From positions 1 through 43,304 of the forward strand of contig JAHDDW010000017.1 of the NCBI GenBank assembly GCA_020629155.1: DNA of 43,304 nt, given 5' to 3'. Positions within the stretch are counted from its first letter, which is position 1. Each line of letters begins with the position of its first letter. Below the pieces are notes generated by a model. It did no database searches, had not been told where the DNA came from, and was given only the letters and a program-made list of their open reading frames with translations. Positions 16,138 to 38,675 of this stretch are shown piece by piece. The position numbers and the translations under genes were made by a program. The DNA comes from Acidimicrobiales bacterium. GTDB taxonomy: Bacteria > Actinomycetota > Acidimicrobiia > Acidimicrobiales > SZUA-35.

Positions 16138-16881
16138 CTATTCGTCTGTCTTGACGTGCTCAATGGGTTGATCTTCTGAATGCTGTCTCCAGTCTGGCCA
16201 CGTCCGTCTTTTATTCCTATCAAGTTTTGCGCGAAGTGCTTGAGCGATTTCCAACGGTGACGCACCGGATCGCCATGCACCGTCGAGTGATAGAAGTATC
16301 ACATCAACCCACTCATGAACTTTGTCAGCCTCTAACGACTCGCGTATCTCTTCGAGTTCTTTGCGAATGTGATTACACACGCCGACTTCTCTTGTTCCTG
16401 GCCCGAAGGTTTGTTCACTAAATACAGTTTGTTCAGTGATGAAATTGATGAGATCAAAACCATAGTCGTGTTGTAGAAAGTCTGGAATCAACCGTGTCAT
16501 CTCAATGTAGCGTTGTATAGTGAACATCGCTTCACTAATGTCGGTGTCTCTCGTCTTTCCGGCGGTACGTCCACCACTGACAATGAGTTTTTTAATTGCG
16601 TGTTGGATTGCACCGCTATGGTCGGGCACTTCCCACAATGCACACACTTGATAGATGTCTAAAAAACGTAAGTGTCGAATGTCTTTGTAGTAATGCGGGT
16701 ATCGACGCACTAGTTCTTCCATCCGCTCATCGTCATCGTCTTTTGCCTCCCAGTCTGCAACGTAGGCTCTTGCAGCCGTCATTGCTTTCTTTCTTCGACG
16801 TTGCAATTCTTGTTGCTTGTTTGGATCATTGGACTCGTTGAAAGCGCTTCGGTCTAACGCTCTTGCTATGTTTGTAATCAT
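16138..16881 (-). CDS. DUF3310-like plus DUF550 (MazG-like dATP/dGTP pyrophosphohydrolase) fusion
   Basis: 247 residues with AGGAAAC before the ATG. The middle part (about 65-130) has LRFLDIYQVCALWEV, IQHAIKKLIVSGG and DISEAMFTIQRYI, the layout of DUF3310 phage proteins. The C-terminal part (about 145-235) is a DUF550 domain: SEQTFGPG, VCNHIRKELEEI, EWVDVILLSLDGAWRSG and RTWPDWR, with the E-x-x-E and E-x-x-D ligands intact. DUF550 enzymes are MazG-like diphosphohydrolases acting on dATP or dGTP. A phage would use this to shift nucleotide pools. The two domains are often separate genes, so this is a natural fusion. Confidence 0.82.
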   Translation of the reverse strand: MITNIARALDRSAFNESNDPNKQQELQRRRKKAMTAARAYVADWEAKDDDDERMEELVRRYPHYYKDIRHLRFLDIYQVCALWEVPDHSGAIQHAIKKLIVSGGRTAGKTRDTDISEAMFTIQRYIEMTRLIPDFLQHDYGFDLINFITEQTVFSEQTFGPGTREVGVCNHIRKELEEIRESLEADKVHEWVDVILLSLDGAWRSGASPLEIAQALRAKLDRNKRRTWPDWRQHSEDQPIEHVKTDE

Positions 16882-23016: not shown

Positions 23017-23066
23017 CGGGTGTGCTGAAATTAAACTGTGTTGTATGTCGTGTGCTTGTTTTAAAG

Positions 23067-23207
23067 TCAGTAGAGAATAAACGCCGGTGCCAGTAGTAGG
23101 GCGGTGGCTGTAATCGCAGTAATGAAGACAATAATTAGTGCACCGGTGTGTAGGTCGGTGATGTCTGCGGTGGTGTCTGTCGTCTTAGTGTTGGTCTGGT
23201 CTGGCAT
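23067..23207 (-). CDS. 46-residue single-pass membrane protein
   Basis: ATG 23207 is preceded by AGGAG at ideal spacing. The 46-residue frame begins MPDQTNTKTTDTTADITDLH, then has one hydrophobic helix of about 22 residues (ALIIVFITAITATALLLAPA) and ends at TGA 23067-23069. The strong ribosome site, polar N-terminus and clean transmembrane helix make it a convincing small gene. Its stop overlaps a copy of the TTAAARTSDGTAGW element. Possible roles are regulator of another membrane protein or exclusion factor; not provable here. Confidence 0.78.
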   Translation of the reverse strand: MPDQTNTKTTDTTADITDLHTGALIIVFITAITATALLLAPAFILY

Positions 23208-23451
23208 GCTGTGCTCCTGTCGCGTTGTTAAATGTAACGGCTAACAACATGCCCAAATTAAATCAGGTAGTTCATCGTGTGATGTCGTTGGCAAACCTGG
23301 AAATAGTGTGGAATAGGTCAAAAATACGCGGTCCCTGTAATGGCCTGTATTGAACGTTCGCCACGTGGGTAATGCACTAGGTAGGGGTTAAAATTGAGGG
23401 TGTACAGGCTCTTACAGTTCAGGGGCATTAGTGCGCGGGCGGCGTGTTTTC

Positions 23452-23490
23452 GGGTGTTTTTGGGGGTGTTTGGGGGCGGTGTTTTTGGGG
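23452..23490 (+). repeat. G-tract cluster (possible G-quadruplex)
   Basis: Four G-runs of 3-5 bases (23452-23454, 23462-23466, 23472-23476, 23487-23490) are separated by T-rich loops of 7, 5 and 10 bases. The repeated unit is GGTGTTT. Loop lengths are long for a very stable quadruplex. Confidence 0.5.
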
Positions 23491-23497
23491 TGTTTGT

Positions 23498-23871
23498 GCC
23501 CTTGGTGTCTGTTTGCTTGAATATGGCACTGTATGGGCATCCAGTGTGCTGTATATCTATACACTGGTAGAATATACAGTTGTTTTCTACCGGTTTTAAA
23601 TTGGGAGCCGTGAATTGGGGTGTTTTGGTGGTGTTTTGGTGGTTTGCCCTTGGTCCGCCCTTGGTTATGCCCTTGGGTTAAGTTGTTGAAATTACACTGT
23701 AATGTTGTTGTATATTATCTTATTTAATTAAGGGGCAAGAATATGAAGTTGTATATGTATGACTTTTAGTGGTTACTTACAGTGTAAGTTTGTGGTGGTT
23801 TATGTGAAGGAAAAAAACATATATATAGGAGAACTTGAAAAATCGTTTGCCCCCTGTTTTTCTGCCCTTGG
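23498..23871 (+). repeat. Five direct copies of octamer GCCCTTGG
   Basis: Exact copies at 23498-23505, 23646-23653, 23657-23664, 23669-23676 and 23864-23871, all on the plus strand. The middle three are spaced 11 and 12 bases apart, about one helical turn, as in iteron arrays bound by initiator proteins. Confidence 0.8.
23528..23593. repeat. Nested inverted repeats
   Basis: Three interleaved pairs occur in 66 bases: ACTGTAT (23528-23534) with ATACAGT (23574-23580), CCAGTGT (23541-23547) with ACACTGG (23561-23567), and CTGGTAGAA (23564-23572) with TTCTACCGG (23585-23593, 8 of 9). It could form alternative hairpins or bind a dimeric regulator. Confidence 0.7.
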
Positions 23872-24069
23872 GCCACTTTTACGCGTGGTGTGCCGTGGTG
23901 GTGTTTTTGTCGCTGTTAGTTTTAAAGTCGGTAGTTTGTTGGTGCTGTTATTGTGTTGTTTGTTGGATGTTGGCTGATACCCTTCGATATGGGCTAAAAG
24001 TTATGACTTTCAACTATGAAGCGAACAACTCAAATCTTTTTGTGGTGAATCCTACCGAGATTAAAATGT

Positions 24070-24098
24070 GTAGACCATTGCACACAATAACGGTCTAC
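24070..24098. repeat. 7-bp inverted repeat GTAGACC/GGTCTAC
   Basis: Arms 24070-24076 and 24092-24098 with a 15-base loop; the left arm overlaps one copy of the 14-bp element. It may be an operator or RNA hairpin. Confidence 0.65.
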
Positions 24099-24118
24099 AA
24101 GAATGAGAATCGACACAT

Positions 24119-24177
24119 GACGATCTCACGCACTTTAAAATGAGTAGACCTATGGCCTTTCTACCGTGGAGATCGTC
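24119..24177. repeat. Long inverted repeat enclosing a 14-bp element copy
   Basis: GACGATCTCACG (24119-24130) pairs with CGTGGAGATCGTC (24165-24177): 12 pairs with one bulged base. The 34-base loop contains TTAAAATGAGTAGA and an inner GTAGA/TCTAC pair. The whole could fold as a branched RNA or serve as a cruciform. No coding frame fits it. Confidence 0.7.
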
Positions 24178-24235
24178 GCTTACAGAGGCTTACAGCGATC
24201 CGCTATTTGCTATGGACTTCACACTTTCCTGGCTT

Positions 24236-24248
24236 CTGTGAATCACAG
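24236..24248. promoter_or_regulatory. Palindrome CTGTGAATCACAG
   Basis: A 13-base near-perfect palindrome (arms CTGTGA/TCACAG around A), typical in size for a repressor half-site pair. Nothing adjacent identifies its binder. Confidence 0.4.
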
Positions 24249-24651
24249 CACACCATTTTTAAATCTCTCCGGCTGATAGCCTGCACTCAATCAGCGTTTC
24301 GGGCACCCCAGTAACAGCCCATAGCCCCAAGCTGTCAGCGTTATGTGCTATGCGTCACATGATGTAAGCCTGTACGCTACCATCTGCGCCCCGTCAACCG
24401 ATAGCTGCACACATTAAAGTCGGTAGAGTGAAACCTAGTCTGCACAAATTAAAAGAGGGGGGAGGGTAGGCTGTGATCGAAGTTTAAAAATTTATGATAT
24501 GACCCACATCCGAAAAATTCTCACAGAAAATTTCCAAATTTAAGTATCTACCTATTTTAATTCCAGTAGATATATGAAATTATAAAATACCATTATCTAC
24601 CAATTTCAAAACCAGCAGATCAAATTACAGGCGTACCAAAGCCGCCACCCT

Positions 24652-25112: not shown

Positions 25113-27614
25113 ATGATTACCGAAAGAGAAGAACAAAACCTCCCTAACGCAATTGACCTATCAGCACCGAAATCCTTACCGCGTAAAACGTTTGGACAAT
25201 CCGTACCGAAGTCGATTGATGAACAGATGCGTTATCTTGACGAGTTGATCAGCGATGACAACCGACTTCACTTAGGCCAGTCAGTCAGTGCGACCTACGC
25301 GGATATGGAACGGTTGCATAACCGCAATAACAGCCATAGGGGTGTCAGCGGTACAGTCAGTGAAGCGGAGAAGCTGTTGAACTCTCAACGCAACGAACAG
25401 CGCAAAACAAGAACAGACATTGAGTTCGACGGGCAAGGCAACGTGAGCATGCCGAAACCTGAACAGTCGTTGCTCTCTAAAGCAATCGGTTTAATGCCAC
25501 CGTCTGTTGCTGCACTGGTAACGCTCGGTGCGACAGGCATGACGCAACTCGAATCGTTTGTCGGCGCTAACTCGCTCGACTATCGTGAAGCGTTCGTCTA
25601 CTTCACCAACAACCCGTCAATCGAAGCGCTGTTACCGGCCCCCGTGCTGGCACTGTTTGCCTATATGCTGCGACGCATGCGTGCGCCTAACACCGTACCG
25701 CAGTACGAGTTGGACCATGCGATAACGAGCTACGACGCGTTAAAAGAACACAAAGAGCGTTCGTTAGAAACGTTGGGTACTAGGCTACTCAACAGGGACA
25801 TAGAGTTCGACGCGATGGTTAGTGAGAAGGACAGCGAGTACGAAGACATGGTTGCGATCAAAGACGCAAGAATCGAACAGTTGGAAGAAGAACGCGATTA
25901 CTTCCGAGGCACTATTCCAAGCGGCAGTGATACACCATCGATACCGCAAGCAGTTGATGCCGTGGCGAACAAGATTGTTCTTGGTGATCCGTCGCTAACT
26001 GATCGTTCTGTTAGAGAGGCGTACAACGAGTTGTTGGAGAAGTACGGAGCGCTGGAAGAATCTGAAGCGATGCAACATGACTTGGCGGAAAAGTATCAGA
26101 GTGAAGTAGGTAGGCTCAACGCGGAGATAGGGCAGCTCAACGGTGCTAATCAGCGGTATTTGCGCTCTAATCAAAAATTGATGTCAGAGCGTGACAAAGC
26201 GTTACAAGCAAAACATGCGACTAGTGGCCATGCCCACCTTATCGAAGAGAAAGACGCGTACATCCGCTCACTGTTGGAAAACGAACAGTTGTTACGTGAT
26301 CGTATTAACGAGCGCAACGTTCGACTGAAACAGTTGGGTGACGGGACAGTGGAAAGACTCAAGCGTGAAAACGAAGAGTTGCTTAACAAACTAAAACGTG
26401 CGCGGGCCTACATCAAGACGAAAGCAAGATTGTCTGACGCGGGGGCGGACATGGTATTTGTTGACCCGAACAGCGTATCGCCGCAAACTAATCTGATTAT
26501 CGAGTTTCGAAGTCATACGCGTAGCGAGTTGATCAATCGAATACAAGAATTGCGACAGATGTTCTTTGTGGCCACTAACCAAGTGCAAGCGCAAGAAGAA
26601 ACTATCGATGAGCTTAAAGATCAATTAAGCGATCAAGCGGACAAAATAAAACTACTCCGTGGTCAAGCACCAAAGGATGTCGATAGTGATATTGAAGAAC
26701 TGCTCGGAGAGATAGACAGCGTTCGAATAAAGCTCAATAAAAAAACCAAAGAGTCACTGGACTTACAAGAGCGATTGAAGAACGCCAACATCCGTGCAAA
26801 CGATGCTGGTGCTGAGATATCGAAGTTGGGCGATCAAGTTGCCGATCTAAAGGTTCAGATTGAAGACCTAAGCGATGAAAACAACACGCTAACGGAAGCG
26901 GCTGAAGACCATGCGTTCGTGATTAAAAAGCTCAAGGACGAACACAAAGCCGAACTTGCTGAGAGCAAGGCACAAAAACCGTTGGGTGAATACTACGACG
27001 ATGGTGATGACACCGTTGAGTTGTCACTAAAAGACACGTATGACAACTGGTTTTCTACCGACGATAACGATGGCACTGTAGTTGTTGAGACAGACGAAGA
27101 CAAAGAAGGCGTTCCGGTTCCACCCAAAGAGATGTACGACGCTGAGACTGACAAAGACGATAGGCCAATCAGCGAACGCCACAACAACCCTGGTAACATA
27201 ATCACGTCCACCGGTTCACCGTGGAACGGGGAGGACAGCACCAACGAACATCGGTTAGCGAAATTCTCATCCGTGGTGTCCGGTACACGTGCAATGATGT
27301 ACCTACTTTACGTGTACTACTACAAGCACGGGTTAAAGACGGTGCACGACATCATTCACCGTTGGTCTCCAGCGGACGGAGAGGGTAATAGTCCTGAGAT
27401 CACCGACAACTACATCATTGCCGTGGCTAGAGACATGGGTGTTAATACACGGGATCATCTACACCTTTCGTCGCCTGCAACGATAAGCGATCTAGTTGTT
27501 GCTATGGCTAAACACGAAGGTGGTCGCCGCAACGAACAGCTAACTACCGAAGTGCTAAAGCAAGCATTCAACGCTTTGCCTAATGGCCTTGCGACAACCG
27601 GAAACAAGACATGA
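25113..27614 (+). CDS. Large membrane/coiled-coil protein with C-terminal lysozyme-like domain
   Basis: 833 residues. A polar N-terminal 115 residues is followed by two hydrophobic segments (about 119-150 and 170-186), then a long coiled coil (about 197-660), an acidic linker, and a C-terminal domain (about 689-805). That domain starts RHNNPGNI and contains KFSSVVSGTRAM, DIIHRWSP, YIIAVARDMG and AMAKHEGG. This is the R-x-N-N-P-G-N-x muralytic domain common in phage virion proteins and endolysins. Membrane anchoring plus a coil of this length is unusual. It could be a membrane-tethered endolysin or an ejected virion protein that spans the envelope. Position beside holin genes favours lysis. 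The stop overlaps the next gene (ATGA). Confidence 0.82.
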   Translation: MITEREEQNLPNAIDLSAPKSLPRKTFGQSVPKSIDEQMRYLDELISDDNRLHLGQSVSATYADMERLHNRNNSHRGVSGTVSEAEKLLNSQRNEQRKTRTDIEFDGQGNVSMPKPEQSLLSKAIGLMPPSVAALVTLGATGMTQLESFVGANSLDYREAFVYFTNNPSIEALLPAPVLALFAYMLRRMRAPNTVPQYELDHAITSYDALKEHKERSLETLGTRLLNRDIEFDAMVSEKDSEYEDMVAIKDARIEQLEEERDYFRGTIPSGSDTPSIPQAVDAVANKIVLGDPSLTDRSVREAYNELLEKYGALEESEAMQHDLAEKYQSEVGRLNAEIGQLNGANQRYLRSNQKLMSERDKALQAKHATSGHAHLIEEKDAYIRSLLENEQLLRDRINERNVRLKQLGDGTVERLKRENEELLNKLKRARAYIKTKARLSDAGADMVFVDPNSVSPQTNLIIEFRSHTRSELINRIQELRQMFFVATNQVQAQEETIDELKDQLSDQADKIKLLRGQAPKDVDSDIEELLGEIDSVRIKLNKKTKESLDLQERLKNANIRANDAGAEISKLGDQVADLKVQIEDLSDENNTLTEAAEDHAFVIKKLKDEHKAELAESKAQKPLGEYYDDGDDTVELSLKDTYDNWFSTDDNDGTVVVETDEDKEGVPVPPKEMYDAETDKDDRPISERHNNPGNIITSTGSPWNGEDSTNEHRLAKFSSVVSGTRAMMYLLYVYYYKHGLKTVHDIIHRWSPADGEGNSPEITDNYIIAVARDMGVNTRDHLHLSSPATISDLVVAMAKHEGGRRNEQLTTEVLKQAFNALPNGLATTGNKT

Positions 27615-27970
27615 ACAGTGTGCAAAAAATAAAAGTATCAAAGCGGGGGTTGATACTCCTAACGCTGATGACAATGTCAACCGTTGTAGCGTGCAGCTAC
27701 ATCGGTTCCCTAATTGCGCTGCTTGCGGGAGACGACATCATGAAAGCCAGGTTGTTTAGCGTTGGTAACTGGAGTTGGTTGGTGTTAATTACGGTCTGCA
27801 TAGTATTGGTGTTGTTTGTTAATTCAGAACGCGACGAGCATCGTCGTCAACGCAGTAAGCGATTACGCAAACGACGTGCACGTGAGAAACGCGGATACCC
27901 GAGACCGAACATTCAGCCACCACAACCATCACCAACAAAACCAAAAGCAACGTTGAGACGCGTAAAATGA
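27611..27970 (+). CDS. Two-pass membrane protein with basic tail, possible lysis protein
   Basis: 119 residues. Hydrophobic segments lie at about 14-40 and 55-70. The C-terminal 48 residues are highly basic then proline-rich (SKRLRKRRAREKRG, QPPQPSPTKPK). Two helices, a short loop and a charged tail fit a class II holin or antiholin, but spanin-like alternatives exist. ATGA overlap at both ends shows tight coupling to the lysozyme-domain gene and to the following gene. Confidence 0.7.
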   Translation: MNSVQKIKVSKRGLILLTLMTMSTVVACSYIGSLIALLAGDDIMKARLFSVGNWSWLVLITVCIVLVLFVNSERDEHRRQRSKRLRKRRAREKRGYPRPNIQPPQPSPTKPKATLRRVK

Positions 27971-28416
27971 CCCCCGAAGAAATAGCAAAGTTTGAAGCAC
28001 AAGTAATGGGCGAGTGGGACGGTGACGAAAAACCACAAACGTTCAATGAACAACTTGAGCGCTACATTTACTACGCGTTAGACCAAACAGCCATGCACGC
28101 GGCAAGAGTGTTGTTGGGCAAGTTCATCATAGACGGGTGGTGTCTCTTAGAGTCATGGAGACACGACGCAGAACCAGACAGCAAAGGCGTCACAACTATT
28201 CGAACGTGCGACATCATTACTGACGCTTACGGGACACTCTGTTTGGCAGTGCACATCAATTTTGCACATAGCGGTACAGCAGGTTCGTTGGAGCCTCCGT
28301 ACGTAATGATGGAGTCGAACCCCGAGTCGCTAACGGAGATTAGAAATTTATTGGATCGCGAACAGTGGGTTCAATCGGAATCGGAAGTGGACGCTGTTGC
28401 GTCAAGTGCGGTTTAA
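27967..28416 (+). CDS. Hypothetical protein, 149 residues
   Basis: ATG overlaps the preceding TGA. A soluble protein with an acidic helical start (TPEEIAKFEAQVMGEWDGDE) and a central section containing tryptophans and cysteines (IIDGWCLLESWRHD, TIRTCDIITDAYGTLC). No motif recognised. Its place between lysis-type genes makes a lysis or envelope role possible but unproven. Confidence 0.7.
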   Translation: MTPEEIAKFEAQVMGEWDGDEKPQTFNEQLERYIYYALDQTAMHAARVLLGKFIIDGWCLLESWRHDAEPDSKGVTTIRTCDIITDAYGTLCLAVHINFAHSGTAGSLEPPYVMMESNPESLTEIRNLLDREQWVQSESEVDAVASSAV

Positions 28417-28842: not shown

Positions 28843-29379
28843 ATGCGGTTCTTATCCCTCAAATGTATTTCAGTGGTTCTGTTCGGTCTGTTGTCGTTGG
28901 TCGGTATCCAAGGGTGTTCGTTACTGGGCGGGGCAGCTCCAACGGCCAGTGTCGTTGCCAACACGTATTTACTTCGTGCTGAGTTCGATATGGCGGTCAG
29001 TACACTGGAGCGCGTACCGTTCAATACCGTGGAACGACAACGGGTTGATAATGCGCTAGCGAATGTCAGTGACATCGTGGACCGGTACGACAATGTGACA
29101 ACTGAAGTCGTGGTGATGACGGTGCTGCAAACCAGATCGGTACTGGACGAAATTGTAGATGCGTATACCGTTATCGAAACGACATACGAACAATACCTAG
29201 AGCGGACAGGCCAGGAAAAGGATTCGTTTCTCAAAGCGTACGGAACATCGGCAATAGCGACACACGATGCAATCGATACGCTGTTGGATGAGAAGGATGA
29301 CGCGTTCAACGTAGACCCGACGCTTGTCGCGGGCTACGTTGGACTCATACTCCGCGTTGTAGCAACCACTGCGCTATGA
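28843..29379 (+). CDS. Lipoprotein
   Basis: 178 residues with GGAGA before the ATG. A lipoprotein signal covers 1-25: basic start, hydrophobic VVLFGLLSLV, lipobox-like GIQGC with the lipid-modified cysteine at 25. The mature part is helical and acidic. It does not have the short proline-rich form of Rz1 spanins, so it is not an obvious spanin. It would sit in the inner or outer membrane and may act in lysis, in immunity to superinfection, or as a structural factor. The neighbouring holin gene follows by seven bases. Confidence 0.78.
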   Translation: MRFLSLKCISVVLFGLLSLVGIQGCSLLGGAAPTASVVANTYLLRAEFDMAVSTLERVPFNTVERQRVDNALANVSDIVDRYDNVTTEVVVMTVLQTRSVLDEIVDAYTVIETTYEQYLERTGQEKDSFLKAYGTSAIATHDAIDTLLDEKDDAFNVDPTLVAGYVGLILRVVATTAL

Positions 29380-29386
29380 CACGGCT

Positions 29387-29716
29387 ATGTTTACACCGGA
29401 ACACTCAACCATTGCTTACGTGGTAGGCATCGTGCTGCTAGGTTCACTTGCAAATGCAATGGTGGCTCTCAACAAGGCCAGACAAGAATCACTTGTCTAC
29501 AACATTGTTGATTTTACAATCTCAATTATTGTCAGCATGTTTGCCGGAATGATGTTCGGTTTAGCCGCTATGTATTTCTCAGAAGACCCCATTGTGATGA
29601 GTTGCAGTGCTGGAGTCGGAGCGTACTTAGGTGTCGGCGGTCTGGCCAAGCTAACTGACATGTTCTTTAACGCAGTTGAATCCTATATTAAAAATCGAGG
29701 CGGTCATGGAAAGTAA
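29387..29716 (+). CDS. LydA-like phage holin
   Basis: 109 residues with three transmembrane helices (about 7-26, 40-64, 70-90). TIAYVVGIVLLGSLANAM and the glycine-rich CSAGVGAYLGVGGLAKL near the end match the LydA/holin family 3 type. Holins form membrane lesions at a set time to release or activate the endolysin. The stop overlaps the start of the next small gene. Confidence 0.8.
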   Translation: MFTPEHSTIAYVVGIVLLGSLANAMVALNKARQESLVYNIVDFTISIIVSMFAGMMFGLAAMYFSEDPIVMSCSAGVGAYLGVGGLAKLTDMFFNAVESYIKNRGGHGK

Positions 29717-29885
29717 TCGCATAGTCGAACGGTTTCGTCGTCAAGGAGTTACGGTTAGAAATTTTGTAGCAATGCCGGTTGTGTTTTTGTTTGTGTTCTT
29801 AATGGCAAGTGGGTTCTCAGCAGTGGTGTCGATGGACGTAGACGCAGTAACGAAAGCACCCGAGGTGGAAGAAAGTAGTGAGTGA
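29706..29885 (+). CDS. 59-residue single-pass membrane protein
   Basis: The longer frame begins at 29676 inside the holin gene; ATG 29706 overlaps the holin stop and is the likely start. Residues 1-20 are basic, about 22-42 form one transmembrane helix (AMPVVFLFVFLMASGFSAV), and the end is acidic (VTKAPEVEESSE). Orientation and size suit a holin partner (antiholin) or a spanin fragment, but this is a guess. Confidence 0.65.
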   Translation: MESNRIVERFRRQGVTVRNFVAMPVVFLFVFLMASGFSAVVSMDVDAVTKAPEVEESSE

Positions 29886-30327
29886 GTTTACCGGTGCACT
29901 AATCCTACAAGACAACTTGGATGGGAACACGTGGACCGTTTTTAAATCGTTTAGGTACTACTTTGACAAGCCGGAAAAGAAGGGTTGGTATATAGATGTT
30001 AATTCAGGTTTCGTAACCGATCTAGCGTCAAAGCCTTTAGTGCGTAAGACAGGAAAATACAATCGTCCTGCCGTACTACACGATCACAACTACAAATATC
30101 CGGTTGCATACTTCGAAGGTAGCCTGCCTGAAAATTTTGATTTTACGATTTGTTATTGTGAAAAATGGTTAACCCGTTTGGAGTGTGACAACATTTTTTT
30201 CATATCGATGCGTATCTCCGGCGTTAACATTTTTTCAGCATCGTTCTATTGGCTGATGGTTCGATTGTTTGGTTGGAAAGCATGGAACAGACACAGAAGT
30301 AGAGATGAAGACCTCAGTGGAATATGA
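29878..30327 (+). CDS. DUF1353 family phage protein
   Basis: 149 residues starting with GTG, overlapping the upstream stop by eight bases. The family signature is clear: a strand-rich start, SGFVTDLASKP (about 43-53), then RPAVLHDHNYKY (62-73) with a conserved HDxxY, and a membrane-like C-terminal helix. DUF1353 genes often lie next to holin and terminase or tail genes. Their job is unknown. Confidence 0.85.
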   Translation: MSEFTGALILQDNLDGNTWTVFKSFRYYFDKPEKKGWYIDVNSGFVTDLASKPLVRKTGKYNRPAVLHDHNYKYPVAYFEGSLPENFDFTICYCEKWLTRLECDNIFFISMRISGVNIFSASFYWLMVRLFGWKAWNRHRSRDEDLSGI

Positions 30328-30952
30328 CATTGATGCGGCGCTTGCTGAGTTCGACGAGATCGATGCGGAAGTCGTTGGTGACATCGACGATGCGATTGCG
30401 GAGTTCGACGCGTTAGAGGCCAGCACGATTGACGACGTGGGGGAAGTCACCGCCATACTGGTTAACCCCGATCAAGATATCGATAGCGTCTTAGGTATGC
30501 AGGATGTTATCAGTGAGCATCGCGACAGCAGTGCGCACATGGAGACTGCCGTTAGTCCCGAGCTTGGCAGGATTCTCGGTGAGATCGAATCCATTGCGTT
30601 CGCTAACATCGCCGACTTGTACGAAGGGCGACAGATATTCGAAGAGTGCGGGTTAGACGAAGAGGGTGAAGTTCAGTATCAGATCATGGATCGCATACTG
30701 CTCAAAGACTTTACAAAGTTACCGCGTGAGATAACCGCTGCAATCCAAAGTATAAAAATTAAGAAAGAGCGCGGCGGGGATGTTATCGAAGTGAAGATGT
30801 ACGACAAGATCGGATCGCTTGAAAAACTTATGCGTTATCACGGTGCGTATGCGCGTGAAAGCGAACAGCGTAAGGATGAAAACGGATCGCTACTCGATCT
30901 ACTATTCAATCAAGTAGACAACAACGGTCTACCTACACCGAAGGCTCAATAA
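30305..30952 (+). CDS. terS: Terminase small subunit
   Basis: 215 residues from the ATG at 30305 (frame extends to 30269). The N-terminal 60 residues are acidic with a duplicated AEFDxxxAE unit. The C-terminal part (about 125-190) has QIFEECGLDEEGEVQYQ, LLKDFTKLPREITAAI, then EVKMYDKIGSLEKLMRYHGAY, typical of the terminase small-subunit C-terminal oligomer/DNA-recognition region. It sits directly before the large subunit. It would select the phage DNA and control the large-subunit ATPase. The usual N-terminal helix-turn-helix is not evident. Confidence 0.8.
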   Translation: MKTSVEYDIDAALAEFDEIDAEVVGDIDDAIAEFDALEASTIDDVGEVTAILVNPDQDIDSVLGMQDVISEHRDSSAHMETAVSPELGRILGEIESIAFANIADLYEGRQIFEECGLDEEGEVQYQIMDRILLKDFTKLPREITAAIQSIKIKKERGGDVIEVKMYDKIGSLEKLMRYHGAYARESEQRKDENGSLLDLLFNQVDNNGLPTPKAQ

Positions 30953-30956
30953 CACA

Positions 30957-33431
30957 ATGTCAACGCCAGAGCGATATTTTGAAGACAATGGCGGTAGCAT
31001 TGTCTATAACGGTCGAACATACAAGAAGCCAAAACTCAAAGAACTTGCGTTAGACAAATTAGCGGATAAAGAGTGGCGTCTCGACAACCTGTACTTCATC
31101 ATCAATGAAGACGGTGAGTTAGTACGTTTTCGTTTGCGACCGATACAGAAGCACTTCTTACGCAATATGTGGTATCGCAATATAATCTTGAAAAGCAGAC
31201 AGCACGGGTTCTGCTGCGATCCGTCAACGCGTGTCTTAACCGCCGATCTAAAGTGGGTAAGAATTGAAGACTTAAAAGTTGGTGAACAAGTTGTTGCGGT
31301 TGACGAACACAAACAAGTCGGTCGAGGAAAAGCACGCAAGATGCGTACAGCAACAGTCGAAGCTGTTGGTGAAGTCTATGACCATGCTTACAAGATCACT
31401 ATGTCTGATGGGCGCGAGTTAATCTGCAATGATCGGCATCCGTGGTTAGGTAAGGCACGCAAAGCAACTGATCTAAAATGGCGGAGCATTAGTGGTAAAG
31501 GCAACAACGTAGTCGGTAAAATTAAAGAAGGATTTTCATTGCGAAGCATAACGCGACCGTGGGATGAAGATCGAACGCCAGAAGACGGTTGGATGGGCGG
31601 CATGATAGACGGTGAAGGTACGGTCGCCAAACAAGAACATCCAATGAAGATAACCATTACTCAACGGCCAGGAAAAATATGGGACCGTATGGACGAGTAC
31701 GCGTTTCTAAATGGTTATGAGCCTACCTATGAAAAAGACAGACGGTATTTAAAACCCAAAGAAGAACGCACGTGCTTAGGTAATGGAATAATTAACCGAT
31801 TGTCGTTTGGGCGTATGGAAGAACTCTTTCGCCTTGTTGCCAAAACTCGACCAAGTAAACTCGAAGGTACTCGGTTTTGGGAAGGACGCGAACTGCCAGG
31901 AAAACGCAGTGCGGCGGAGATAGCAAACGTCGAGGTGGTGAAGATCGAATACATTGGTAAGCAGCGTCTTATCGATTTGCAGACCAGTGAGAAAACATTT
32001 ATCGCTGAGGGTTTCGTTTCTCACAACACGACTTTTATAGAAATATGGAAGTTAGACACTGCAATATTCACTAAGAATTTCAAGGGTGTCATCATTGCGC
32101 ACAAGAAAGAAGACGCTAGTGAAATTCTAAGTTCGAAAGTAGAAGTACCGTACGCAAACTTGCATCCCGATATCGTTGCTCGCGTAGGCATTAAGTCAAG
32201 TAACAAGAGCATGATTGAATTTTCAAACGGCTCTAGTATCAAAGTCACAACGTCTGGTCGATCCGGTACGGCGCAATCACTTCACGTATCTGAAATAGGG
32301 TACACCGCTAAACATCGTCCAGATGTCGCACAAGAGATTAAGTTAGGTTCACTGCCTGCCGTTCACCAGAAAGGTTTTGTGTTCTTTGAATCAACGGCTG
32401 ATGGTGCGGGCGGTATGTTTTTCGACATGTCAATGAAAGCACTTAATGATTCACGTGAAGGAAAGAAACTAACGCCATTTGATTTTAAGTTTTTCTTTTA
32501 CGCGTGGTTCGATAAGCCGGACAACGTATTGACCGACGAAGACGCTGACGTGCAAGTGCTAACGGCGGAGATGGATAAGTATTTCTCCGAAGTCGAAGAA
32601 GCAGCCGGTATCACGTTGAGTTGGAATCAAAAAGCGTGGTACATCGTGCAAGCCGACATTTTCGAAGACAAGATGAAACAAGAGCACCCGAGCACGCCAG
32701 AAGAGGCGTTCGCGAACTCAGGTGAAGGTTTCTACTTCCTAAAGCAGATGGGCGATGCTAGGGAGCAGGGACGGCTTATATCAGGCGGCATGCCACACTC
32801 CAACCATCCCGTAAGAACGTACTGGGATATCGGCGTTAACGATCCGGCAACATGCTGGTTTATTCAGCGTGTTGGTGTTTACTATCACGTGCTTGGCTAC
32901 TACGAAGATACCGACAACGGGATGGACCATCACATAAGCCAAGTAAAGTTTATTGCTGAAGAACGGGGTTGGCGATTGGCTGACGATTGGATCGGCCCGC
33001 ACGACATGAAGAAACGCAACCCAGGAAACTCTAAGACGTTGGTCAAAGAGTGTGCAGGGTACGGTGCGAAATTTAAAGTCGTGCCCAAAGTGCCAAATAA
33101 AATCTTGTCAATACAGGCTGCTCGACGAATGATATCGATGTGCAAGTTTGACAAAGAAGGGCCGAACATGGAACTCGGTATGAGTCGAATGGACAACTAC
33201 CGAAAGGAATGGAACAAGCAAACAATGACGTGGGCCGACAAGCCTCGCAAAGATATGGCAGGGCACGGAGCTGATGCCTTTCAATGTTTTGCCATGTATG
33301 AAGAAAGCGGTTCTGATTACGACACGCGTCCGGCTGCACAACCGGACCCAAGGAACCACGGCATGCAGCCCAACGCGTACGGTGAGAGTTCGCCAGCACA
33401 AGGTAACAATGCAATGAGAGCGTTTACATAA
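30957..33431 (+). CDS. terL: Terminase large subunit interrupted by an intein
   Basis: An 824-residue precursor that yields a 553-residue terminase. The host motif is the deviant Walker A LKSRQHGFC (78-86), joined after splicing to TTFIEIW; the intein lies inside this ATP-binding loop. Downstream are LHVSEIGYTAK (ATPase motor glutamate region), an RNase H-like nuclease start RTYWDIGVNDP, and the final acidic residue in AGHGADAFQCF. It would package DNA into procapsids with the small subunit. The gene cannot work unless the intein splices. The TAA stop shares a base with the next ATG. Confidence 0.93.
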   Translation: MSTPERYFEDNGGSIVYNGRTYKKPKLKELALDKLADKEWRLDNLYFIINEDGELVRFRLRPIQKHFLRNMWYRNIILKSRQHGFCCDPSTRVLTADLKWVRIEDLKVGEQVVAVDEHKQVGRGKARKMRTATVEAVGEVYDHAYKITMSDGRELICNDRHPWLGKARKATDLKWRSISGKGNNVVGKIKEGFSLRSITRPWDEDRTPEDGWMGGMIDGEGTVAKQEHPMKITITQRPGKIWDRMDEYAFLNGYEPTYEKDRRYLKPKEERTCLGNGIINRLSFGRMEELFRLVAKTRPSKLEGTRFWEGRELPGKRSAAEIANVEVVKIEYIGKQRLIDLQTSEKTFIAEGFVSHNTTFIEIWKLDTAIFTKNFKGVIIAHKKEDASEILSSKVEVPYANLHPDIVARVGIKSSNKSMIEFSNGSSIKVTTSGRSGTAQSLHVSEIGYTAKHRPDVAQEIKLGSLPAVHQKGFVFFESTADGAGGMFFDMSMKALNDSREGKKLTPFDFKFFFYAWFDKPDNVLTDEDADVQVLTAEMDKYFSEVEEAAGITLSWNQKAWYIVQADIFEDKMKQEHPSTPEEAFANSGEGFYFLKQMGDAREQGRLISGGMPHSNHPVRTYWDIGVNDPATCWFIQRVGVYYHVLGYYEDTDNGMDHHISQVKFIAEERGWRLADDWIGPHDMKKRNPGNSKTLVKECAGYGAKFKVVPKVPNKILSIQAARRMISMCKFDKEGPNMELGMSRMDNYRKEWNKQTMTWADKPRKDMAGHGADAFQCFAMYEESGSDYDTRPAAQPDPRNHGMQPNAYGESSPAQGNNAMRAFT
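31215..32027 (+). mobile_element. Intein in terminase Walker A motif
   Basis: 271 codons. Splice block A starts CDPSTRVLTADLKW with Cys1; the B-block position reads CNDRHPWL, keeping the histidine but with Asn where Thr is usual; the C-terminal block is RLIDLQTSEKTFIAEG ending FVSHN, and extein +1 is Thr. One LAGLIDADG-type motif is visible (WMGGMIDGEGTV) but I see no second clear copy. The endonuclease is therefore either a dimeric single-motif type or decaying. Confidence 0.92.
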
Positions 33432-34440: not shown

Positions 34441-36996
34441 ATGCAAGCAGCAATTATGACCCCCTCGCAGACGCGGGAAGCTGAGAGCAACGCAGCCATT
34501 GAGCGCGAAGCAGGGGCAGCAGCCATATCGCTAGTGGAAGAAGCGGACATTTTTCGCATCCACTTGGCCAAGCAGATCACCGACGATTGGCGCAAAAACC
34601 GAGACAACCGGCTTCGCGTTGATCAAGAAATGCTCACGTGTCTACGTGAAAGAAAAGGCGAATACGATCCCGACGAACTGGCACTGATTCAGTCGCAAGG
34701 TGGATCGGATATCTTTATTAAAACGGCGACCGGAAAAATACGCGCCGGTATTGCGCATATTAAATCCGTCATGTTGCCAGCAGGCGAACGCGCTCACGGT
34801 ATCGAGCCGACAGCTAATCCAGACATACCGCCGTTTATGGAAAAGCGCATCCTCGACCGCATAGCGCAGAATCCGAACATGGTTGACGATCAAGGGCAAC
34901 CGGTCCCACTGGACGCGCAACCAAAAATTCTAATGGACATGATCCGACGTGAGATTCGATCATGGTCTGCCGCCGCTTGCGAACGGATGGAGCGCAAGAT
35001 CAACGATCAGTTGGATGAAGGGAATTGGCTTCGTGCAATGTCAGATTTCATTGACGACTTTTGCACATACCCTGCCGCATTTATGCGCGGACCATACATG
35101 TCGTATGAGCCGTCACTGAAATACGAGCTTCAAGAAACCGGTGAGTACAAAGAGGTTTCAGGCTTTGTGGCCAAGTGGAAGTTTAGAACGATCAATCCGA
35201 TGGACGCTTACCCCGCACCTGGAGTTGACTCGTGTCAGAAAGGTTCGTTTATCGAACGTCTTCGCATGTCAAAGAAAGAACTCTATCGCATGCGCAAAAT
35301 GCCTGGTTATTCGGAAGAAGCCATTAAGAATGTTATGCGTGAAGTAGAAGGCAACACGTTAGAGAACTGGTTATGGACAGACACAGCACGAAAGCAAATT
35401 GCGAATCATAATTATTTTTGGAACAAGACCACGACAGACTTCGACGGTCTTCACTGGTTCGGCAGTGCTCAAGGTTTAGATTTGTTGCAGTGGGGTATGG
35501 ACCCCAAGTTAGTGCCGGACCCATTGGACTACTACGAAGTCGATGCAATCTTAGTGGGTAAAGAAGTTGTTCGTGCGGCGATCAACCCCGATCCAAAGTA
35601 TCGTCGCTCAGTACACTCCAGTTGCTATGAACGCATACCAGGAAATGTATTCGGCAACAGTGTGTCAATGTTAATGCGTTCAACCGGTCGCATGATCAAT
35701 GCGACGGCACGTGCACTACAGAATAACCAAGCACATGCGTCAGGGTTCCAAGTTGAAGTCAACCACCGACGACTATCGCCAGAAACAAAAGCGCATACAC
35801 ACTTCCCGTTTAAAGTTTGGCAGACTGAAGAGTCAGAACAGGCTACTAACGGTGCACCAGCCGTTCGCTTTTTCCAGCCGTCTTCTAATGCTGGTGAACT
35901 GATGGGCACGATCAGTTACTTCTTGAACATCGCTGATACCGATACCGGCATACCGTCTGTGCTTCAAGGCGGGCAAGGTAGCACTGACGGCGCGGACGGT
36001 ACTGCGAAGGGTAGGGGCTACCTACTCTCCAGTGCTGCAAAGCTACTGCGATCATCCATCGGTAATGTCGATGAAGACGTGGTGGTGCCAATCATTCAGA
36101 TCATGTACGACAACAACATGCGATACGAAGACGATCCGTCCATCAAAGCTGACGCGTCAGTCGTGGCACGCGGTGCTAACCAGATGTTGCAACGTGAGAC
36201 AGCACGTCAAGATCACATGGCCGTACTTGAGATAACTAACAACCCAATGGATCAACAGATCATTGGTGTACGTGGTCGAGCGCACTTGCTCAAGAAGACG
36301 CTTAACACGTTTGAGAACATCGATGGTAATCACGTCATACCGGACGGTGAAGAGTTTGATCAACTCATTACGAGTATTGAGAATCAAGAGCCGCCACCAG
36401 ACCCAATGATGATTAAGATCGAAGCGGATGAGCGCGTCGCGATGAGTAAGCTGGACGTTGAGAGTCAAAAAATTGCTCTGCAAGAAAGACTCAAGGCTGA
36501 AGAGATTGCAGCGCAGCGAATCATCAAGACAATGGAGCTATCAACTAAGGAAAAAATCTCCGCAGACGACATGCAGAAAACCATACAGAACGAGATCGTT
36601 AAGCTACGCGCAACACGCATGGCCGAGCGCGAACGCGTTCAGATGGATTTGAAAATGGCCAAGCTCAAAGCGGAAAGCGAAGCACGCATGAAAGTTGCTG
36701 ATCTTAAAGAGCAGCGCAAACAACGTGCAGAGCAAGGCAATGCCGATGACATGAAAGCCGGTGTCACCGACAAAGAGATTGCCGGTATCGTTGCAGCAAC
36801 CGTTACACCGTTGTTTGAAAACTTTAGAACGGAGATCGGCGGTACTATCGATTCTATTGCCGCCGCAATACAGACTGACAACGTTACTGGCCAGCCGATC
36901 AATGTCACCGTCAACATGCCTAGTGCGAACAAGTCGATGACGTTTACCAAAGACCCCATCACCGGTGCGATGAGCGGTCAGGTGGTTGCTGAGTAA
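34441..36996 (+). CDS. Portal protein
   Basis: 851 residues with GGGAG before the ATG. Size, position after terminase, and segments such as TATGKIRAGIAHIKSVML, AACERMERKINDQLDEGNW, MAKWKFRTINPMDAYP-like core and the tunnel-loop region suit a large podovirus-type portal. The C-terminal quarter (about 640-790) is a charged coiled coil (EERVAMSKLDVESQ, RERVQMDLKMAKLKAES), like the barrel of P22-type portals. It forms the dodecameric DNA gate and assembly starting point. The stop overlaps the next ATG (TAATG). Confidence 0.85.
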   Translation: MQAAIMTPSQTREAESNAAIEREAGAAAISLVEEADIFRIHLAKQITDDWRKNRDNRLRVDQEMLTCLRERKGEYDPDELALIQSQGGSDIFIKTATGKIRAGIAHIKSVMLPAGERAHGIEPTANPDIPPFMEKRILDRIAQNPNMVDDQGQPVPLDAQPKILMDMIRREIRSWSAAACERMERKINDQLDEGNWLRAMSDFIDDFCTYPAAFMRGPYMSYEPSLKYELQETGEYKEVSGFVAKWKFRTINPMDAYPAPGVDSCQKGSFIERLRMSKKELYRMRKMPGYSEEAIKNVMREVEGNTLENWLWTDTARKQIANHNYFWNKTTTDFDGLHWFGSAQGLDLLQWGMDPKLVPDPLDYYEVDAILVGKEVVRAAINPDPKYRRSVHSSCYERIPGNVFGNSVSMLMRSTGRMINATARALQNNQAHASGFQVEVNHRRLSPETKAHTHFPFKVWQTEESEQATNGAPAVRFFQPSSNAGELMGTISYFLNIADTDTGIPSVLQGGQGSTDGADGTAKGRGYLLSSAAKLLRSSIGNVDEDVVVPIIQIMYDNNMRYEDDPSIKADASVVARGANQMLQRETARQDHMAVLEITNNPMDQQIIGVRGRAHLLKKTLNTFENIDGNHVIPDGEEFDQLITSIENQEPPPDPMMIKIEADERVAMSKLDVESQKIALQERLKAEEIAAQRIIKTMELSTKEKISADDMQKTIQNEIVKLRATRMAERERVQMDLKMAKLKAESEARMKVADLKEQRKQRAEQGNADDMKAGVTDKEIAGIVAATVTPLFENFRTEIGGTIDSIAAAIQTDNVTGQPINVTVNMPSANKSMTFTKDPITGAMSGQVVAE

Positions 36997-38675
36997 TGGC
37001 AGGCTTACGTCTAGCATGGAACGTAGGTTCTAACAACGCCGGTGATCCGCAGGCCGTGACATTGTATTCGCAAGTGTCCGGCTACGCTCAGATATCAATA
37101 AGAGCCGCAACACGAGTCGGCACAACTCCAACGTTTTTTGTTGATTACTCCACAGCACAGCTAGGTACAACACCAAGCCTAATTTATTATGCGTGTTATA
37201 GAAACACATCGCCGTTCGATTTGATGGAGTCAGGCGAGTTCTACTTCGACGGCGCACAGATTATAAAAACACCCGAACTCTACACCGTCCTAACCAGTCT
37301 ACAAACAGCTCTTGAAGCGCACGTCACAGCAGAACACACGGCTACTAAATCAGACGTGGCGTCGAATATTTCAGCGCTTAATGATGTCAGCTCTACAGAC
37401 ATCACAACCATTGTTAATTCTGCGCGAGACAGTGTGAACACCAACGTCGATTCGTTGAATGATGTCAGTTCAGCAAATATCACAACCATTGTTAATGCTG
37501 CGCGAGACAGTGTGAATACGAACATCGATTCGCTAAACGATTTGTCCGCAGCAGATGTCAAAGCCCAAGTTGATTTGTCGTTAGCTGATTACGATCCTCC
37601 AACAGCCGCCGAGCTAACCGCAACGCAGACAGCCGTGCTGTCGGGTATTAACAGCGGCAATGCGACAATCAACACCAACATTGCAGCGCTTAACAACGTG
37701 AGTGTCGGCGAAGTACGCAATGAAGTGGATGCGTCGATAGCCGCTTACGATGCGCCGACTAACGCGGAAATGAACTCAAAGTTCGCAACTACTGATTCGC
37801 TAATTACCGGTGAACGTGTCGCAGTTGAAAGTGCAATCGCAGCAGCGCAGACAGCAATCAATTCAAATACCGATACTGGTCTCGGTGCGCTTAACGATCC
37901 AAGTGTTGCGGAGATCGAAGCAGCATTGATCGATGACGATGACGGCTCAACGTTCAAGGCAGCGTTAGCCTTGACGATTGAAAACGCAATTCTGAACGAT
38001 ACAGACGGCGCAGCGGTACTTGCTGGCATGCAAGGCGCTACAGCCGCAGCGTTAACAGCGTACGGCGTTTCAACAGCAAGCGATGTGTCGGCGTCAACCA
38101 GTGCCGTACAAGGAACCATAGGTGCGTTGTCTTTCGCGACACCGACTAACGTAACCGATGCACGCGATTTAATTCAGGCAGACATAGCAAACATCGAGAC
38201 TGTTGATATTTCATCGTTGGCAACCGGAGCGCAAATCTCATCGGCACAAGCAAACATTCGCGGCGACATAACAGCGCTCAACAATCTCAGTGCAACGGAT
38301 GTGGCGAACTCGTTGTTCACTTATGGTACTGCGACTGTAGCGTCAGTGAATACTGCGCGGGATGTAGTCACCAACGCTGTTGCCGGACTCAACGACTTAT
38401 CGTTAGCCCAAGTGCAGACGGAACTGTCGAGTTTAAATGTTGCAGAAAAAAGTGATGTAACTAGCATCTTGAATGCAATCACGTCATCGTCAGTGGATAT
38501 CACGGCAACCGAAACCAACACGCTGGACATCAAACAGCTATTGCGTGCCGATCAAGTACCCGTGGGGAACGACATCGTGTACTACCGTGAAGGTTCCAAT
38601 AAGACCGTCGAACTACACCGACAAACTATTACTGGCGGCGTTTCCGTGCTCAGTGGTCTCGGTCTTGAGTCGTGA
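36996..38675 (+). CDS. Repetitive fibre-like structural protein
   Basis: 559 residues, rich in Ala, Ser, Thr, Asn and Asp, with few cysteines. After a beta-rich N-terminal domain (about 1-95) it is built of helical repeats. The motif [AS]LN[DN]xS recurs seven times (e.g. SALNDVSS, DSLNDLSA, AALNNVSV, TALNNLSA). Two 26-residue units are near-identical at DNA level (37377-37532). A small beta-rich end follows. This layout is typical of head or neck fibres and tail-associated trimers. It lies between portal and scaffold genes, so a head/neck fibre is likely. Confidence 0.7.
   Translation: MAGLRLAWNVGSNNAGDPQAVTLYSQVSGYAQISIRAATRVGTTPTFFVDYSTAQLGTTPSLIYYACYRNTSPFDLMESGEFYFDGAQIIKTPELYTVLTSLQTALEAHVTAEHTATKSDVASNISALNDVSSTDITTIVNSARDSVNTNVDSLNDVSSANITTIVNAARDSVNTNIDSLNDLSAADVKAQVDLSLADYDPPTAAELTATQTAVLSGINSGNATINTNIAALNNVSVGEVRNEVDASIAAYDAPTNAEMNSKFATTDSLITGERVAVESAIAAAQTAINSNTDTGLGALNDPSVAEIEAALIDDDDGSTFKAALALTIENAILNDTDGAAVLAGMQGATAAALTAYGVSTASDVSASTSAVQGTIGALSFATPTNVTDARDLIQADIANIETVDISSLATGAQISSAQANIRGDITALNNLSATDVANSLFTYGTATVASVNTARDVVTNAVAGLNDLSLAQVQTELSSLNVAEKSDVTSILNAITSSSVDITATETNTLDIKQLLRADQVPVGNDIVYYREGSNKTVELHRQTITGGVSVLSGLGLES
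37377..37532 (+). repeat. Tandem 78-bp in-frame duplication
   Basis: Units 37377-37454 and 37455-37532 encode LNDVSS(T/A)xITTIVN(S/A)ARDS repeats that differ at few positions; a third, diverged unit follows. This is recent expansion of the fibre repeat and a likely hotspot for length change. Confidence 0.85.

Follow-up and report, generated by a model that had tools for sequence, protein, structure and literature searches.

Does the protein that we designate P0001, in which a predicted wall-cutting domain follows a long and mostly helical N-terminal part, serve its phage in leaving the host cell or in entering it? The question is raised by an open reading frame (ORF) at 25113..27614 (+) of a 43,304-nucleotide stretch of DNA (here, the window) that constitutes an entire contig (JAHDDW010000017.1; C23) of the genome bin of an Acidimicrobiales bacterium (GCA_020629155.1) and whose end falls within phage late genes. 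The ORF starts with ATG, runs uninterrupted for 833 amino acids (aa), in agreement with the original prediction made from the DNA letters, and opens a rightward late block (ORF list, PHROGs, PDB sequence search). That prediction had described a muralytic protein in a lysis locus, which sequence, fold and gene order now support, and had offered two readings, an unusual endolysin or an ejection-tube protein. The former is the better supported: the 50 ORFs scanned in the window and the 9 scanned on a sister contig, C59, gave no match to another peptidoglycan-hydrolase family, and C59 encodes separate internal virion proteins. In our view, P0001 is most probably an endolysin that depends on the holin and has a catalytic domain of the Enc34 type, built on an unusually large, partly coiled-coil protein. 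Its domain, fold, catalytic residues and gene order were computed directly, as was the lack of any other recognized endolysin in the scanned ORFs of the two contigs.

As judged from sequence and a structural model, the last ~140 residues of P0001 are an Enc34-type (PHA02564) peptidoglycan-hydrolase domain (residues 684 to 820; 27162..27572, +). The PHROGs family phrog_873 (“endolysin”) matched residues 676 to 820 (E 5.2e-37), and a Pfam scan matched no family to the catalytic domain. Searched against PDB sequences, the last 213 residues found 7q47, the Enc34 endolysin (E 1.7e-10), and, second, Gp29 of entry 9vvp (E 5.2e-9). An AlphaFold model of the domain, computed from an alignment of 42 rows (mean predicted local distance difference test [pLDDT] score, 84.1), has the fold of the 7q47 catalytic domain: with VIA-align it matched 7q47_B at Z 16.8 (root mean square deviation, 2.6; 135 aligned residues; next chain, Z 4.8), and with Foldseek it matched 7q47 at E 1.8e-9. 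Residues described as important for catalysis in the part of the Enc34 report cited here are E131, W79, and Y95 (PMC8943055). Alignment to 7q47 gave P0001 counterparts for all three, namely, E802 (27516..27518, +) for the catalytic E131, W751 (27363..27365, +; confirmed by a residue check) for W79, and Y767 (27411..27413, +) for Y95, with E802 and Y767 invariant in the 42-row alignment. The terminal R-x-N-N-P-G-N domain noticed originally is likewise present (R689 to N695) and is now backed by phrog_873 and by the sequence and fold matches to 7q47. By the argument made for Enc34, the enzyme is probably a beta-N-acetylglucosaminidase.

The genes that follow P0001 are arranged as in a lysis cassette placed before the packaging and head genes. 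The late block reads P0001, a 119-aa protein, a 149-aa protein, a lipoprotein, a holin, a DUF1353 protein, the terminase small (TerS) and large (TerL) subunits, the portal, a gene preceding the capsid gene, and the capsid. In phage lambda, the lysis genes are followed by the terminase genes, and the order here (lysis genes, TerS, TerL, portal, capsid) resembles that of lambda. P0001 thus heads the late block, with about 13 kb between it and the capsid gene, and does not lie inside an internal-virion or tail module. PHROGs were searched with a chosen set of 50 of the 95 window ORFs, the other 45 being mostly overlapping; in this set, an endolysin family was matched only by P0001 and a holin family only by the ORF at 29387..29716 (+), which belongs to Phage_holin_3_3/LydA of holin superfamily III (PF16083, 32.4 bits, cut-off 28.4; phrog_6384, 1.4e-10).

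Between P0001 and this holin lie three further genes. The 119-aa protein (27611..27970, +), whose start overlaps the P0001 stop (ATGA), has two hydrophobic segments and a basic tail by hydropathy; it is possibly a second holin or an antiholin, and there was no lysis family among its Pfam and PHROG matches. The start of the 149-aa protein (27967..28416, +) overlaps the preceding stop in turn, and neither Pfam nor PHROGs gave it a family. The third product (28843..29379, +) is a predicted lipoprotein of 178 aa (Cys25) with a C-terminal hydrophobic segment, its Kyte-Doolittle peaks reaching 2.24 at residue 4 and 1.75 at residue 160 and its only cysteines standing at 8 and 25. Part of the spanin literature gives the criteria for unimolecular spanins (u-spanins) as a lipoprotein signal, a C-terminal transmembrane segment and no periplasmic cysteine and calls u-spanins highly diverse (PMC6139136). 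By hydropathy and inspection, the lipoprotein has all of these features and is predicted to be u-spanin-like; no spanin family matched it in Pfam or PHROGs.

Contig C59 (L403, 1-17894; 17,894 bases) very probably carries the remainder of the phage to which P0001 belongs. Among 35 contigs of >7 kb, compared over the first 20 kb of each, its tetranucleotide correlation with the window was 0.903, against 0.706 for the next contig and 0.906 between the two halves of the window itself. Matches to proteins from the structural region of related phages came from four of its ORFs, and window plus C59 add up to 61.2 kb, near the 60.9 kb of the cultured relative RHph_TM3_14A. Its products include an internal virion protein of 591 aa (phrog_511, 1.8e-93), a virion protein of 1979 aa (phrog_22602, 3.2e-60), a virion structural protein, a tail fibre protein, and a beta-helix tail spike. 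After the tail spike gene lies a Glyco_hydro_16 protein (L403:16325-17221; PF00722, 6.3e-15), possibly a polysaccharide depolymerase. No peptidoglycan-hydrolase family was matched among the 9 C59 ORFs scanned, a chosen set from 33 of which the other 24 mostly overlap. When the contig heads of the bin were searched with an Enc34-type domain profile that recovered 13/13 known carriers, no further copy of the domain turned up. Of the two observations named originally as arguing against an endolysin role, the first, a separate endolysin, was looked for in the scanned ORFs of both phage contigs, and none besides P0001 was recognized there; the genome is not closed.

C59 emerged from the contig heads, whereas proteins of RHph_TM3_14A and of Pseudoalteromonas phage Y3, used as queries for tail genes in the bin, found nothing. 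Contig heads of C25 (2 ORFs), C37 (1), and C43 (1) also matched proteins of related phages, and none of the three was adopted as part of the P0001 phage. The C43 protein has Ig/cadherin-type domains. The C25 proteins (L369, 8659-10751) resemble what we take to be a DnaB-type helicase and a NinG-type protein, and C25 may belong to another phage or prophage within the bin.

The observations on the completeness of the phage and on the company kept by the domain include a number that weigh against an endolysin, and they are taken together here. Window and C59 show no end overlap, so a gap is possible in which a missing gene could lie. The edge of C37 (L381, 11-340) holds the start of a GH25-type protein of the membrane-anchored type, like the GH25 protein of RHph_TM3_14A (3.7e-6); since the tetranucleotide correlation of C37 is 0.949 with host contig C1 and 0.651 with the window, we read this as a host gene. 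PHROGs files phrog_873 under “head and packaging,” and P0001 is also matched by phrog_2276 (tape measure, E 4.1e-21) and, furthermore, by phrog_7182 (tail injection transglycosylase, E 8.8e-11). With 833 aa, P0001 greatly exceeds the short carriers of the domain in length. In a survey of 160 loci, the top-scoring of two scans (80 of 493 and 80 of 404 confirmed), the domain lay in a short protein (≤260 aa) in 80, in the N-terminal or middle part of a longer protein in 76, and at the C terminus of a long protein in 4 (L087, L137, L150, and L160), and these four resemble tail proteins, presumably tape measure or hub. The same resemblance holds for the long C-terminal carriers of Aeromonas phage 51, Yersinia phage 210.17, and Orisa01, which we file as tail-type from size and position; in their own records they are annotated as hypothetical, in one case with the remark “Phage protein inside capsid D.” One of the four survey proteins, L150:6015-8453 of Ewingella americana, has 812 aa with the hydrolase domain C-terminal, no hydrophobic peak of at least 1.55, and a phage-like region around it.

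Such observations suggest the alternative that P0001 is a virion protein, ejection or tape-measure-like, whose hydrolase domain enters the cell with the DNA and whose gene merely lies beside the lysis genes. In its model P0001 is long and mostly helical and bears a hydrolase domain, as fits such a protein, and the helical part, a hydrophobic stretch, and the C-terminal hydrolase together recall the tail-type carriers. Epsilon15 and a Kayfunavirus have the domain in large proteins within internal-virion-protein genes, and, since the scanned C59 proteins have no peptidoglycan-hydrolase domain, the virion would otherwise lack one. A quick domain tree also leans this way, placing P0001 in a mixed, mainly virion-type group (Shimodaira-Hasegawa-like approximate likelihood ratio test, 82; inner forks, 87 and 90); its input had been reduced by dropping segments that were identical or <110 residues (154 rows, P0001 and 12 phage records included) and then near-copies (89 rows). 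In a second tree, without Peetri, L021, Yen210, and L156, P0001 stands on a long branch. Approximately unbiased (AU) tests rejected neither placing (p-AU 0.783 without and 0.66 with P0001 among 19 virion-type rows, these rows having been selected after the first tree was seen), so that the tree leaves endolysin versus virion undecided, its virion lean not being significant. Against a virion role stand the place of P0001, which heads the late block and is collinear with the lipoprotein and holin genes, the dedicated internal virion and tail proteins on C59, and the consequence that the phage would then have no recognized endolysin in the 61.2 kb at hand. On balance we hold a virion role, the chief alternative, to be unlikely.

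Gene position was also compared among phages with a related portal, of which eight had a lytic gene named or found. It lies directly upstream of TerS-TerL-portal in four, Pseudoalteromonas Y3, Pasteurella Pmp11, Roseobacter CRP-1, and viral contig L186. In the other four (RHph_TM3_14A, ctsTn925, Rollin, and phiM6) it lies downstream of the portal, which speaks against an endolysin gene at the P0001 position. Upstream of TerL in ctsTn925 lies the gene of a giant coil-containing protein, a point for the virion role. An even split means that position alone does not decide. Upstream ORFs were listed for 15 portal-related viral contigs, and those scanned comprised 8 of L186, with one endolysin match and one Rz-like spanin match, and 2 of L218, neither of which matched a lysis family. 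The terminase-adjoining protein of RHph_TM3_14A was considered as a P0001 relative and set aside, as blastp showed no resemblance. The holin, however, belongs here to the upstream cassette, and among the late genes scanned on C59, the expected site of a downstream endolysin, there is none.

How would so large an endolysin be held in the cell? The original prediction had seen two hydrophobic segments, and the 19-residue Kyte-Doolittle peaks of P0001 do form a pair, 1.55 at residues 120 to 138 and 1.54 at 168 to 186. In 1,000 composition-keeping shuffles, one such peak occurred in 21%, two in 2.5%, and two within 60 residues in 0.4%. The first marginal stretch (residues 120 to 152; 25470..25568, +) corresponds to helices 118 to 127 and 130 to 152 of the model; the second (168 to 188; 25614..25676, +) corresponds only to a helix of 13 residues (176 to 188; pLDDT about 62) and leads into a basic RRMR (187 to 190). 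Within the same window, the adjoining holin reaches 2.1 and a helicase, taken as soluble, 1.79, and the P0001 segments include PP and LPAP. The pair thus goes beyond chance as a pair, yet its members, peaking below the helicase, are marginal and unconvincing as membrane spans. There is no hydrophobic N-terminal signal or anchor in the first 119 residues. With the first peak only from residue 120, P0001 has neither the N-terminal signal-anchor helix of a signal-arrest-release (SAR) endolysin nor the N-terminal inner-membrane helix of an inner-membrane spanin (i-spanin). Among the 80 short carriers in the survey, 7 appear SAR-endolysin-like by simple hydropathy (an N-terminal hydrophobic segment), L069, L151, L156, and L161 among them.

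Precedent for a membrane-bound form of this enzyme comes from two phages: in the parts of the reports cited here, Enc34 joins the same catalytic domain to a membrane domain, the full-length protein being toxic (PMC8943055), and M4Lys of Salmonella phage BSPM4 also joins it to a membrane domain, one required for lysis (PMC7143992). P0001 might accordingly be a tethered endolysin of the Enc34/M4Lys kind, its hydrophobic pair permanently embedded in the inner membrane, and lyse without the holin. The rarity of two such close peaks among the shuffles agrees with this; their weakness relative to the helicase peak, the PP and LPAP within them, and the 13-residue second helix do not, and we consider a permanent tether improbable. 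If the pair does span the membrane, the positive-inside rule weakly favours an N-in/C-in arrangement with coil and enzyme on the cytoplasmic side: RRMR follows the second segment, and the loop between the peaks (148 to 171) has 1 basic and 3 acidic residues; the wider flank at 190 to 215, for its part, is net acidic (3 basic, 5 acidic). Because RRMR points, weakly, to a cytoplasmic coil and enzyme, a coil that crosses the periplasm is unsupported.

The coil itself proved shorter and less regular than the more than 450 residues first claimed. A broken helical, partly coiled-coil region of 424 residues (197 to 620; 25701..26972, +) is made up in the AlphaFold model of helices 197 to 266, 277 to 289, 297 to 370, 374 to 407, 410 to 442, 457 to 516, and 523 to 620, with prolines at 269, 275, 278, 293, 452, 457, and 520; the model of the entire protein has a mean pLDDT of 69.3, and its coil geometry is a sketch only. 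A home-made heptad score exceeded the 95th percentile of shuffled per-residue values across 321 residues in 7 blocks, the longest of 92, one block (76 to 104) falling outside the helical region. A low-confidence linker (pLDDT <50; residues 621 to 680; 26973..27152, +) leads to the catalytic domain.

These properties bear on the inner-membrane anchor with periplasm-crossing coil envisaged originally, by which P0001 would amount to an i-spanin fused to an endolysin, with the lipoprotein at 28843..29379 as its partner. The lipoprotein is encoded in the same block, and i-spanins, in the part of the report cited here, are inner-membrane proteins with predicted coiled coils (PMC6139136). The proposal has to contend with the missing N-terminal signal anchor, with two segments and an RRMR that weakly predict C-in, with a broken helical region, with a lipoprotein whose own C-terminal hydrophobic segment could let it act alone, and with a bin in which searches found neither LpxC nor Omp85, so that an outer membrane is not assured; we judge it very improbable. 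The marginal character of the hydrophobic segments tells against such an anchor as well. The bin is 97.4% complete, and the control searches for LpxC and Omp85 were positive in 4 and 7 of 14 genomes, respectively, Escherichia coli and Caulobacter included; 16S rRNA was not found in the bin. Yet the phage in this bin, in which LpxC and Omp85 were not found, encodes a spanin-like lipoprotein; either its contigs have been binned wrongly, or its host departs from the standard diderm type. Related portals occur mainly in phages of Proteobacteria and related capsid proteins foremost in Brevibacterium and Mycobacterium phages. Of 397 genomes of the order, 2 have related capsid genes, one of these genomes being that of the window itself.

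For P0001 as a holin-dependent endolysin, we infer enzyme activity, oligomerization, membrane contact, and holin dependence and picture them as follows. P0001 would be made with the late genes, from a block that also encodes the holin, the u-spanin-like lipoprotein, and the two-segment membrane protein. Having no visible N-terminal signal sequence, it would build up on the cytoplasmic side of the membrane, whether in soluble form or loosely attached to the membrane's inner face by its weak hydrophobic pair. The helical region may make it an oligomer, keeping the enzyme back or concentrating it, and once the holin opens the membrane, P0001 would reach and cut the wall. A bolder version, which we consider doubtful, is that coils assembled at the inner face of the membrane, attached there by a weak hairpin of two segments, hold a whole cluster of wall-cutting domains in readiness until the holin releases or exposes all of it together. 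Were that so, coil-based control would be a third way of restraining the enzyme, beside soluble and SAR/Enc34-type membrane endolysins. Should P0001 prove to be the endolysin, it would be an example of a lysis enzyme on a large and possibly oligomeric scaffold, of relevance to the restraint of endolysins and to role changes between virion and lysis enzymes.

In the remainder of the window, the left part holds mostly leftward replication and recombination genes, the rightward exceptions being an integrase (5980-6999) and a primase-type gene (10277-12967). A dATP/dGTP pyrophosphohydrolase (16138-16881; PF04447, 7.8e-20) represents a family that occurs in phages whose DNA contains 2-aminoadenine; PHROG scans of the chosen window ORFs named no PurZ-like protein. 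The 2.1-kb stretch before P0001 contains only two small ORFs, neither with a family match. The motif TTAAARTNNGTAG, picked by eye from 23061 to 24609, where most matches fall, has 13 matches in the window with at most one mismatch (1.47 expected; as many in 0 of 100 shuffles), and 8 of the 13, including all 6 exact ones, lie within that 1.5-kb stretch, which precedes the late block. The cluster possibly serves as an operator, a promoter, or part of an origin. Around P0001, scans for promoters and terminators gave scores below or near chance. Downstream of the holin follow the DUF1353 protein (29878..30327, +; PF07087, 1.2e-10; phrog_1158), TerS (30269..30952, +; PF03592, phrog_51), TerL (30957..33431, +; Pfam, PHROGs, homologue alignment), and the portal (34441..36996, +; phrog_332, 5.4e-36). 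TerL has an intein-like insert: an Intein_splicing match at residues 95 to 357 (24.7 bits) is under the Pfam cut-off of 35.8, and the best homologues align only over ~34 to 87 and 358 to 782. The gene between portal and capsid is related to one that precedes the capsid gene in related phages. The ORF at 36996-38675 contains two near-adjacent 75-bp copies (37380-37532; 88% identical).

Full-length relatives of P0001 were found neither in exact-peptide scans of viral and genome contig collections nor, P0001 itself aside, in genomes of the genus (3), order (397), and class (395), sets that overlap and contain the window's own genome. The sole non-self match in the class-level genomes had 25% identity and covered the coil only. 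Among 11,200 ORFs of related phages, there was no Enc34-type domain (profile E ≤ 1e-3) and no P0001 relative. Residues 1 to 620 had no similarity beyond chance in the phages collection (two matches at E 0.9), and in Foldseek the whole model reached a TM-score to query of at most 0.19 among viral predictions. A limited literature search turned up no description of an Enc34-type enzyme joined to a long, partly coiled-coil protein.

Comparison with known carriers of the domain places P0001 between two kinds. Annotated carriers include endolysins as well as internal-virion or head proteins, and the annotated short ones lie in lysis cassettes. VogelGryff bas25_0085 and Komp_PAO1_1 CDS0056 adjoin annotated holin and spanin genes, and a 139-aa protein of Vibrio phage Pm34 is encoded about 1.4 kb upstream of the terminase genes; these short proteins (139 to 155 aa) have the same domain as P0001 without its long helical part. 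Large proteins that share the domain are epsilon15 gp15 (842 aa) and Kayfunavirus SH3 gp40 (1295 aa), in which, unlike P0001, it is internal or N-terminal and the genes stand within an internal-virion-protein module, away from the holin. Similar in layout are the proteins of Aeromonas phage 51, Yersinia phage 210.17, Orisa01, L087, L137, and L160, where the domain is near the C terminus after a long N-terminal part, although the genes of the first three are in tail regions, unlike that of P0001. Enc34 ORF39 (7q47) has the same catalytic fold (Z 16.8) and W/Y/E residues; in the part of its report cited here, it is a 26-kDa protein with the enzyme N-terminal and a two-helix membrane domain C-terminal (PMC8943055). 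That two-domain layout is not the layout of P0001, whose enzyme is C-terminal (684 to 820), whose helical region takes up 424 residues, and whose marginal hydrophobic segments are upstream of the enzyme. P0001 has in common with Enc34 and M4Lys its place in a lysis module, together with genes of holin and spanin type, and a hydrophobic part of two segments; among the ORFs scanned here, no other endolysin was recognized. The PHA02564-type domain is a module both of cell-exit enzymes and of large virion-module proteins, and P0001 combines the long helical architecture of the entry type with the gene position of the exit type.

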